Assembly: GCA_025054835.1 (NCBI GenBank) | Contig: JANWZQ010000010.1 | Coordinates: 1-64,000, forward strand | Source of the DNA: Chthonomonadaceae bacterium | Lineage (GTDB): Bacteria > Armatimonadota > Chthonomonadetes > Chthonomonadales > Chthonomonadaceae | Direction of reading: 5' to 3' | Length of the DNA stretch: 64,000 nt | In this document: piece by piece, positions 56,390 through 60,502 of the stretch | Layout: each line of letters begins with the position of its first letter | Numbering within the stretch: the first letter of the stretch is position 1 | Position numbers and translations under genes: made by a program | Notes under the pieces: generated by a model | What the model saw: only the letters and a program-made list of their open reading frames with translations | Databases searched by the model: none | What the model was told of the DNA's origin: nothing

Positions 56390-56444
56390 TTAACGGAAAC
56401 TTAATTTTGCGATAACACCATTTTAAAACGGACAGAGGTATGCT
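56390..56444 (+). promoter_or_regulatory. Four 11-base-phased TTAAC-like units and a -10 element
   Basis: TTAAC (56390), TTAAT (56401), ATAAC (56412) and TTAAA (56423) start exactly 11 bases apart. -10 TATGCT lies at 56439-56444, with no separate -35. The last unit starts 16 bases before the -10, as where an activator replaces the -35. Points right to the prepilin gene, but the phosphoesterase gene diverges from the same region. Confidence 0.6.
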
Positions 56445-56543
56445 CATTGACGTCACGATCCCGGAGGGCTGGTCCTTTCGCAAGAAAGTCCGGCGGAAGT
56501 CAGTACGCGCCTCCGTCCGGACACAGACAAGGAGACACCTGTG

Positions 56544-57698: not shown

Positions 57699-58430
57699 AT
57701 GTCACTCGGATACAAAGACACACCCATCCTGCCGGACTCCGGCTACCATGTGCACGACGGCGACCGCCCGCAACCCCCCGTCGTAACCCCCGGCGCCCCG
57801 GGCACATCCGAACTCATTACACCACCCCCCTCCGACGCCATCGTGCTCTTCGACGGCACCGACCTCCGTCACTGGCGCGCACTGGACGGAGGTGAGGCCC
57901 GATGGCGCGTCGAAAACGGCTCCCTGCAGGTAGAACCCGGCACCGGGGATATTCGCACCGTGGAAAGCTTCGGGGACATCCAGCTTCACCTCGAATGGGC
58001 GGCCCCGGCCGAAGTACATGGCGAGGGGCAGGGACGGGGTAACAGCGGAGTCTTCCTCATGGACCGCTACGAGATCCAGATCCTGGACTGCTTCCAGAAC
58101 CCCACCTACGCCGACGGCACCACCGGCGCAGTCTACGGCCAGTACCCGCCCATGGTCAACGCCTGCCTCCCACCGGGCCAGTGGCAAACCTTCGACATCC
58201 TCTGGCAGGCTCCGCGCTTCGATGGAGAACAGGTCGCACGCCCGGCAACCGTCACGGTTCTGCACAACGGCGTGCTCCTCCACCTGCACCGCACGCTGCT
58301 CGGAGCAACCGGATACCGGTGCATCCCCGGGTACACCCCGCACGGCAACGGACCGATCCGCCTGCAGGACCACGGCCATCCGGTGCGTTTCCGCAACATC
58401 TGGGTACGCCGGCTGGACACGTACCTCTGA
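57699..58430 (+). CDS. DUF1080-family 3-keto-disaccharide hydrolase-like protein
   Basis: 243 residues from ATG 57699 (CGGAG upstream). Concanavalin-like fold of the family: AIVLFDGTDLRHWRALDGGE, ARWRVENGSLQVEPGTGDI, FGDIQLHLEWAAP, GNSGVFLMDRYEIQILDCFQ, GAVYGQYPP and GPIRLQDHGHPVRFRNIWVR. No signal peptide, whereas many members are exported. Members hydrolyse 3-keto glycosides made by Gfo/Idh oxidoreductases, two of which are in this window but not adjacent. Confidence 0.9.
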   Translation: MSLGYKDTPILPDSGYHVHDGDRPQPPVVTPGAPGTSELITPPPSDAIVLFDGTDLRHWRALDGGEARWRVENGSLQVEPGTGDIRTVESFGDIQLHLEWAAPAEVHGEGQGRGNSGVFLMDRYEIQILDCFQNPTYADGTTGAVYGQYPPMVNACLPPGQWQTFDILWQAPRFDGEQVARPATVTVLHNGVLLHLHRTLLGATGYRCIPGYTPHGNGPIRLQDHGHPVRFRNIWVRRLDTYL

Positions 58431-58480: not shown

Positions 58481-58533
58481 TTAATAAAATTTAAGAACCC
58501 CTTAAGGCAAATTTAATCTCTGCCGACTATACT
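58481..58533 (+). promoter_or_regulatory. Three 11-base-phased TTAA units and a -10 element
   Basis: TTAAG (58491), TTAAG (58502) and TTAAT (58513) start 11 bases apart; a further TTAAT at 58481 is off by one. -10 TATACT is at 58528-58533, 15 bases after the last unit starts, matching the layout at 56390 within one base. No gene with a ribosome binding site follows on this strand. Confidence 0.6.
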
Positions 58534-58539
58534 GTGGAC

Positions 58540-58627
58540 AAGCAACTCGATTGGGGTGGACGTGCGCGCTCTCGCATGTTGCGACACGGATTTCACCTCT
58601 CCTCGCACTCCAGCGAGGTTTTTTTTT
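58540..58627 (+). ncRNA. Candidate small RNA (about 88 bases)
   Basis: It lies between the TTAA-repeat promoter and a strong intrinsic terminator. Noncoding. A helix GGGGTG / CACCTC (from about 58554 and 58593) encloses GTG-CGC / GCG-A-CAC. The terminator loop ACTCCA and the 5' single-stranded part are candidate pairing regions. No family recognised. Confidence 0.6.
58601..58627 (+). terminator. Intrinsic terminator of the candidate small RNA
   Basis: Stem CCTCGC / GCGAGG with loop ACTCCA, directly followed by nine T (58619-58627). Confidence 0.9.
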
Positions 58628-58645: not shown

Positions 58646-58673
58646 GAGGCACGTTGCACACGCAACGTGCCTC
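58646..58673. repeat. Inverted repeat after the leftward sigma-like/TPR operon
   Basis: Perfect 11-pair palindrome GAGGCACGTTG / CAACGTGCCTC with loop CACACG. It lies 46 bases past the stop of the leftward gene ending at 58719, and just after the small RNA. Probably stops or protects the leftward transcript; on that strand no T run follows. Confidence 0.5.
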
Positions 58674-58718
58674 CCGGAAATGCCAGCCCTGCTGGAACGC
58701 CGTGCCGATATAGCGGGA

Positions 58719-58955
58719 TCAGACGAGGCCCTTGCCGGTCTTCCCGTGCGTCTCCTGACCATCAGCGACACGGAAAATACGCCCCTTGCCTCCCTTGCCG
58801 TGCGTCTCCTGGCCATCCACCACGCGATGTATCCCGGGGGCCTGCCAGCGATCCTCTCGATAGGACCGCATGCCACACAGCCCGGTAAACAACACACATA
58901 TCACAGCACAGGCCAGCGCCCTGTACACCACATTCCGGGGGGATATGCCTCTCAT
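58719..58955 (-). CDS. Tiny membrane/secreted protein with 18-residue tandem repeat
   Basis: 78 residues, ATG 58955 overlapping the upstream stop as ATGA, with AAGGAAG before it. Hydrophobic segment YRALACAVICVLFTGLCG, then two copies of an 18-residue unit: RVVDGQETHGKGGKGRIF (44-61) and RVADGQETHGKTGKGLV (62-78). A lipobox is not clear (FTGLCG is possible). Translational coupling to the sigma-like/TPR gene suggests joint function. No relative known to me. Confidence 0.62.
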   Translation of the reverse strand: MRGISPRNVVYRALACAVICVLFTGLCGMRSYREDRWQAPGIHRVVDGQETHGKGGKGRIFRVADGQETHGKTGKGLV

Positions 58956-60502
58956 TGACGCTCTTCCTTTCCCAGCTCGCCGTCCAACCAGTTCCACCAC
59001 GCTACCAGATCACTGTCCCGTATCTGAAACAGGGTCCGCAGGAACTTCTCGGCGGGACACTCCGCAAGATCATTTTCCAGTACGGTGTTCAACAACTGTT
59101 GTGCTTCCCGGTAATACCGGTCTTTCACGTACGCCAGCAGCAGATTGCAGGCACGCATCGGAGTGGGCCGTTGCATGGCCAGACGAGCATAGTACGTGGC
59201 CCGCTCAATGTTCCGCTCCCGATTGCGTCCCGCGTCAAACCACGTCAGATAAATATCCGCCGCGTTGGTCGCCGCAATGTACCGATGCTCACCCGCATCG
59301 GGATGCTCCACAATACTCAGGTAAATCTTCAACGCATCGCGCAGGTTGCCTTTCTGGCTCAGCAGCACCCCGACCTCATTGAGCGCGGCCAGAAAGCGCG
59401 GATCCCGCTCATAAGCCGCGCGGTACAGACGGATAGCCTCCTCGATCCGGCCCGCACGGCGCGCCCGCTTGGCCTGCTCATACAGCTCCTGCGCCTCCGC
59501 ACACTCCGCAGTCGGATTATCACCCAGCGTGTAAGTATCCATCACACGCATGGCCTGACGCATCTCCGGAGAGGGAGGGGCCACATGCGCCACATCCCCG
59601 ACCTCGTTGACCACCGCCTCCTCCACATCATCGTCCGGATGCGGTGCGACTGCCGCACGCTCCTTCCACGAGGTGTTAAGCAGGCGACGCAACAGATCCT
59701 GCTGACGCTGGGCAGTCCAGTTTGCAGAGGGAGATGGCTTCTGGCGCACGCGGGCGCTCCTTTGTTGCGCGATCAGACGTACAAAAGGATTATCGAGTCC
59801 GCACTCTTTACGCAGAATATCCGAGAGGGCCGCACGCGCGCGGCACACAGCCTGACGCTCCCGATCGGTCTCCGGCGCGACCTTCGCACCGTTCTGCCGC
59901 TCCCGCTCGCGGGCCATATCGCGCTGCAGCGCCATCAGATAGTGAGCCGGGATCCGCTGCAACGCCCGGGCCAGTGCCCGACGGAACCGCGCGCGCTCAT
60001 CCTGATCGATCAGAACCGCCTCCGGCAGAACGTCGATCGCCTCCGTGGCCAGCGTATCACGCAATGCCAGCGCGGTGTCCTCGCTGCCGGCAATCGGCTG
60101 ATCCATGGAGATCGTAGGAACCTCGCGCCGCGCCGCGCGCTCGGCATCGCTTACCACCGAACGCACGCACCGGGCCAGATACGCCACAGGATCCGGAAAG
60201 AGCACCTCCAGCGCCGCATCAAAATCCATGCCCCGGAGGCTGGCGTCCCCCTGATACCGGCGCAGCGCCACCCGGGCCATCTTGCGGCAGGCCTCCTCCA
60301 GCGCCACATAGGCGTCGTTGGCACTCATGCGCGGAGGCAACGTGCGCCCATCCTCCAGCGTGCGTGGCGACGCGAGCAGGGTAACGGCCCGCGCACCGAA
60401 GCGACGCAGGACCGCCTCGGCCGCCTGCACCGGGTCCACTCCCACACAGATCCCCGCAGCGGGCGCGATATGCTCAGACCGATGTTTTGTTGGGGTTGCC
60501 AC
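58952..60502 (-). CDS. Sigma-factor-like N-terminus fused to TPR domain
   Basis: 516 residues, GTG 60502 preceded by AGGAGG. Residues about 60-230 are helical with features of ECF-type sigma regions (YVALEEACRKMARVALRRY, VAYLARCVRSVVSDAERAAR, then FRRALARALQRIPAHYLMAL resembling region 4), but the match is weak and promoter-binding residues cannot be assigned. Residues about 340-500 contain TPR-like repeats (AQELYEQAKRARRAGRIEEA, FLAALNEVGVLLSQKGNLRD, ATYYARLAMQ). Could be an ECF factor with a TPR sensor, or just a helical scaffold. Its promoter lies at 60635-60663. Confidence 0.6.
   Translation of the reverse strand: MATPTKHRSEHIAPAAGICVGVDPVQAAEAVLRRFGARAVTLLASPRTLEDGRTLPPRMSANDAYVALEEACRKMARVALRRYQGDASLRGMDFDAALEVLFPDPVAYLARCVRSVVSDAERAARREVPTISMDQPIAGSEDTALALRDTLATEAIDVLPEAVLIDQDERARFRRALARALQRIPAHYLMALQRDMARERERQNGAKVAPETDRERQAVCRARAALSDILRKECGLDNPFVRLIAQQRSARVRQKPSPSANWTAQRQQDLLRRLLNTSWKERAAVAPHPDDDVEEAVVNEVGDVAHVAPPSPEMRQAMRVMDTYTLGDNPTAECAEAQELYEQAKRARRAGRIEEAIRLYRAAYERDPRFLAALNEVGVLLSQKGNLRDALKIYLSIVEHPDAGEHRYIAATNAADIYLTWFDAGRNRERNIERATYYARLAMQRPTPMRACNLLLAYVKDRYYREAQQLLNTVLENDLAECPAEKFLRTLFQIRDSDLVAWWNWLDGELGKEERQ

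Follow-up and report, generated by a model that had tools for sequence, protein, structure and literature searches.

Positions 58491-58627 of the window, i.e. the whole stretch of 64,000 nt of DNA analysed here, raise the question whether a TTAA repeat box can drive an RNA with no gene attached and, if so, what controls this RNA and what it acts on.

Layout of the unit

The window (contig C125) derives from a 3.7 Mb genome (G000; 202 contigs, 97% complete). The following features were assigned:

58481-58516, plus strand: TTAA direct-repeat box with TTAA at 58481, 58491, 58502 and 58513; class Q (TTTAAG type)
58528-58533, plus strand: -10 element TATACT, 11 nt past the last TTAA; no -35 hexamer
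58534-58551, plus strand: putative seed region with GACAAGCAACTCGAT at 58537-58551, antisense to ATC GAG TTG CTT GTC (IELLV)
58540-58627, plus strand: candidate small RNA of about 88 nt without a complete ORF
58553-58599, plus strand: central imperfect hairpin, GGGGTGGACGTGCGC pairing with the GACACGGATTTCACCTCT side (fold prediction)
58601-58627, plus strand: intrinsic terminator CCTCGC-ACTCCA-GCGAGG with T9 (stem 58601-58618, T9 to 58627)

The TTAA cores at 58491, 58502 and 58513 follow each other with a period of 11, and the extra TTAA at 58481 lies 10 nt upstream. The nearest upstream gene, on the plus strand, encodes a PF06439 protein and has its end at 58430; the genes that follow on the other side lie on the opposite strand and are convergent. 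A perfect inverted repeat without a T run (GAGGCACGTTGC-ACA-CGCAACGTGCCTC, 58647-58674) lies in the gap that separates the small RNA from the end of this convergent operon and probably represents the operon’s 3’ hairpin.

Stop codons are absent from all frames of 58534-58627. Hence no ORF can end ahead of the terminator, and a small protein encoded by this region was rejected. Transcription probably starts near 58540, which would make the seed the unpaired 5’ end of the small RNA. The predicted fold of the full RNA (-30.7 kcal/mol, z -2.3) consists of 13 unpaired nt at the 5’ end, the central hairpin and the terminator. Therein the CU-rich stretch TTCACCTCTCC is paired with GGGGTGG. An earlier note on this DNA had read box, -10, about 88 noncoding bases and the T9 terminator as one transcription unit, which is confirmed by the coordinates, the stop-free frames and the terminator. 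The RNA has its own promoter, its own intrinsic terminator and no coding capacity, as demanded of a small RNA, and we consider 58491-58627 very probably a small RNA gene.

The box belongs to a TTTAAG-type regulon

The triple box YTTAAN6YTTAAN6YTTAA has 12 perfect matches in the 3.7 Mb genome compared to 0 for the reversed pattern and thus is not due to chance. Extended by 11 nt and TANNNT it still matches perfectly at seven sites of this genome, and every one of the 17 family genomes has the arrangement when one mismatch is allowed. Across these 17 genomes the box stands in register with the -10 element upstream of functionally coherent genes. The earlier note had made its reading conditional on the box being regulatory; given this recurrence, it almost certainly is.

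The genes behind the boxes fall into two groups. The first is pstS, which carries the box in several genomes; direct inspection upstream of pstS revealed a box in 10 of 15 cases. The second is one of exported proteins and comprises a multihaem protein resembling cytochrome c554, an OB-fold lipoprotein that contains CPVAGCW, DUF3179 proteins and TPR lipoproteins. Many DUF1559 pseudopilins also have a box upstream and belong to either the pstS (Pho-type) or the second group. Position matrices were built from the pstS boxes (CTTAAC type) and the second-group boxes (TTTAAG type). Leave-one-out log-odds separate both sets cleanly, with +10.6 to +28.0 for pstS boxes and -13.2 to -30.7 for the second group. 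The window box scores -17.3 and is therefore of the second, TTTAAG/TTTAAT type and not a Pho box. Pho regulation of the window RNA was rejected, since the repeat is not of the CTTAAC type. No pstS, i.e. no co-regulated phosphate gene, was detected in this 97% complete genome. Pho-type boxes are present in G000 and G007, yet pstS was detected in neither whole genome.

A further box in the window (56390-56444, plus strand) is a fourfold TTAA-type repeat with ATAA as third copy. It is followed by TATGCT 12 nt downstream and precedes a DUF1559 gene at 56541.

An OmpR/PhoB-family response regulator likely binds the window box, because PhoB and SphR typically use 8-bp sites arranged in tandem and spaced by 3-bp linkers (PMC1906773). 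From the boxes, two OmpR/PhoB-type regulons can be told apart in this one family of uncultured bacteria.

Other box-driven small RNAs

Among 31 genomes of the class, box, -10, 60-90 nt and T6 occur in this order in 7, compared to 0 in all 31 for the reversed control. If 60-120 nt are allowed, RNA-like units only are retrieved, two coding genes excepted. Nearly all box-plus-terminator units in the 31 genomes are small-RNA genes, namely family A, family B and the window RNA. This amounts to at least three box-driven small RNAs within one family of uncultured bacteria. The loci are:

C138:38279-38420, minus strand: family A copy in this genome (L030)
L056, L061, L076, L100, L105, L112, L129, L140: other family A loci
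L062, L063, L064: family B, between a Pho-type box and a 258-aa gene starting right after its terminator

Family A occurs in nine genomes (G000, G003, G004, G006, G009, G012, G014, G015 and G010, the G010 copy being taken from box matches with one mismatch). Its members carry an invariant hairpin GCTC-(A/G)CTCTCC-GA(G/A)C and ATC(A/G)CCC, with GCTCACTCTCCGAGCGA..ATCACCC conserved. This Chthonomonadaceae family resembles the window unit in the layout of box, RNA and terminator. In contrast, its boxes are mostly of the Pho type, it has no pilin seed and it shows no sequence similarity to the window RNA (alignment p = 0.59), so that homology of the two was rejected.

Family B is found in three genomes of one genus (G001, G011, G014) and could also act as a leader or attenuator of the adjoining 258-aa gene. 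It exhibits an unpaired 5’ AGCARYTCGAT, a hairpin, GGATTNCAYC and a CU-rich stretch before the terminator. The 11-nt 5’ motif, GGATTNCAYC and the CU-rich stretch ahead of the terminator are likewise seen in the window RNA, whereas the box differs in type (Pho in family B, TTTAAG in the window). Global alignment of the window RNA with family B gives p 0.001-0.02, a two-block shuffle test p about 0.2, which is not significant. The shared motifs are suggestive, yet the resemblance is a tentative one and common descent no more than possible.

G002 contributes one further unit (L075), whose box shows a single mismatch. CU-rich stretches (CACTCTCC, CACTCTCTCC) are also found in family A and the G002 RNA. 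Neither the window RNA nor family A, family B or the G002 RNA matched Rfam at gathering score, and membership of the window RNA in an Rfam family was rejected. Scanning about 85,000 species genomes for a half-box plus AGCARYTCGAT returned the three family B copies and one gammaproteobacterial match. By the names attached to the family B matches, close relatives belong to Chthonomonadaceae, Armatimonadota, with which the many DUF1559 pseudopilin-like genes of the window genome agree. The gammaproteobacterial match (L160, a MAG) has TTTTAAC three times at a period of about 11-12, followed by AGCAGCTCGAT, and is probably a chance match.

Complementarity of the 5’ end to pseudopilin motif codons

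The earlier note had proposed the 5’ part for target prediction. This part leads to IELLV, the reverse complement of 58537-58551, within the pseudopilin motif FTLIELLVV. The in-frame antisense match of 5 aa has p = 0.0002 in 20,000 dinucleotide shuffles; of the perfect 15-mer, 3 nt precede the probable start of the transcript. Besides the RNA itself, 13 sites with at most two mismatches to the seed exist genome-wide, compared to 3 for the reversed pattern. Eight of these 13 coincide in frame with the IELLV codons of FTLIELLVV genes, and the only perfect match is a DUF1559 gene. The genome harbours 43 DUF1559 pseudopilin-like genes. Pairing energies of 41 pilin-like starts against 102 control genes favour the pilins (p = 0.007 for the 13-nt seed, 0.027 for 21 nt). 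By longest complementary run, two of the 41 starts reach 10 contiguous bases (shuffle p = 0.04), a weaker test because codon choice differs among paralogues. Only a subset of the DUF1559 paralogues would be expected to pair well with the seed.

The unpaired 5’ end of family B, AGCAGTTCGAT, is antisense to IELL (p about 0.009, shuffles); in the predicted fold none of the bases of this terminal seed is paired. Only two positions distinguish the window seed from that of family B, one in the Glu codon (third base) and one in the Leu codon (first base), and both changes are synonymous in the target. Neither the G002 RNA nor any of four family A members examined has an antisense match to the pilin motif. 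The target idea arose from the data; hence its p-values are optimistic and we hold it at a little short of an even chance. In statistical terms, the window RNA exposes an unpaired seed complementary to mRNAs encoded elsewhere. Of the earlier note’s interpretation, promoter, non-coding body and terminator are well supported. Action in trans, which that note had envisaged, is no more than plausible: the antisense relation of the unpaired 5’ end to pseudopilin motif codons speaks for it, but no sequence homologue was detected.

We tentatively suggest, at somewhat less than even odds, that the RNA carries a protein motif in antisense as its 5’ seed, namely the complement of the IELL(V) codons in the prepilin/pseudopilin leader region, and thereby can address many paralogous surface-protein mRNAs. 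The seeds of the two genera, differing only synonymously, would either have been retained or have arisen twice, with OmpR/PhoB-type boxes of different kinds in control. Alternatively, the RNA may be a genuine small RNA of the TTTAAG regulon with other targets, e.g. via the anti-Shine-Dalgarno-like TTCACCTCTCC, and its complementarity to pilins a matter of chance. This reading is consistent with the CU-rich stretches of family A and the G002 RNA, which have no pilin match, and with the post hoc nature of the match to the window seed. However, the low shuffle p-value of that match, its repetition by family B at the same place and the paired state of the CU-rich stretch in the predicted fold argue against it. 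We regard it as possible but less likely than not.

Neighbourhood and conservation

BLAST of the window RNA against 60 relatives revealed no homologue, only a weak 38-nt match in G045; the genus of the window genome is represented by one genome among those compared. The neighbouring stretch downstream (58719-60502, minus strand) carries the gene for a sigma-like and TPR protein of 516 aa which is conserved in all 17 family genomes. Neither box nor RNA was found beside its orthologues elsewhere. Conservation of the window RNA by synteny was rejected on this basis. An RNA that is not conserved while its flanks are had been named in the earlier note as evidence against the gene; this is what is seen at the family level, the genus contributing one genome to the comparison.

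Behind the 516-aa gene lies a small ORF that looks secreted and has RVxDGQETHGKxGKG repeats at its end. In L083, L087, L088, L089, L092 and L094 the 516-aa orthologue likewise has a comparable small ORF next to it, containing DGQETHG or the variants DGQESHG/DGIETHG. The pair looks like a cassette of a regulator plus a signalling peptide.

Alternatively, the transcript of the PF06439 gene might run on through the RNA, which would then belong to its 3’ UTR; the promoter would be an internal one and the terminator would chiefly serve this gene. Gene and RNA share a strand, and a search for a terminator closer to the gene found none. A fully formed box stands between them, however, and elsewhere such boxes mark the start of transcription units, which renders this reading unlikely. 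Still less probable is a decaying orphan promoter with its gene lost and a short transcript without function: homologue and conserved neighbourhood are both lacking and the neighbourhood is rearranged, but both promoter elements, box and -10, are intact, a tight terminator follows and the complementarity of the 5’ end is non-random.

Proposed mechanism and comparison with known systems

Our preferred reading, to which we give close to an even chance, is a small RNA that acts in trans, is controlled by an OmpR/PhoB-type regulator and would pair with pseudopilin mRNAs and lower their expression. The putative response regulator would bind the TTTAAG-type triple repeat and recruit RNA polymerase to the promoter lacking a -35. 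The RNA would begin near 58540 and stop at the terminator. Its unpaired 5’ end may then pair with the early coding part of pseudopilin-like mRNAs, i.e. those of DUF1559 genes and of others with the motif. Small RNAs with target sites in coding sequences are known to block early elongation or to make the mRNA accessible to RNase. Here the duplex would form about 30-60 nt past the start of the coding sequence and could have either effect, and expression of the pseudopilins would presumably fall. Switching on the regulon would turn down part of a gene family dozens strong together. If the seed works as proposed, one RNA adjusts part of the large DUF1559 pseudopilin family via the codons of its signature motif. 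If true, this is a simple way of controlling families of paralogues.

The cyanobacterial Pho box consists of TTAA-cored tandem repeats with 8-bp units, a 3-bp linker and an 11-bp period, CTTAACCT (PMC1906773). Like PhoB/SphR promoters, the window box is a triple repeat of period 11 that ends 11 nt before the -10 and has no -35. The pstS genes of the family itself carry such tandem TTAA boxes, as do Pho regulon promoters. Unlike the Pho regulon, the window box type is common to cytochrome and lipoprotein genes and not to phosphate genes.

Among the papers listed in literature searches, none dealt with regulatory RNA in Armatimonadota. Elsewhere, GcvB is a multi-target small RNA acting on ABC-transporter mRNAs, and MicC pairs with ompD inside the coding sequence. 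AbcR1/2 are likewise multi-target small RNAs on ABC-transporter mRNAs (PMC3712013). The window RNA as proposed resembles GcvB and AbcR1/2 in that one RNA would address many functionally related mRNAs, and MicC-ompD in pairing within the coding sequence. In contrast to these systems, the site common to the targets of the window RNA would be the codons of a conserved protein motif in paralogues and not a shared ribosome-binding region.
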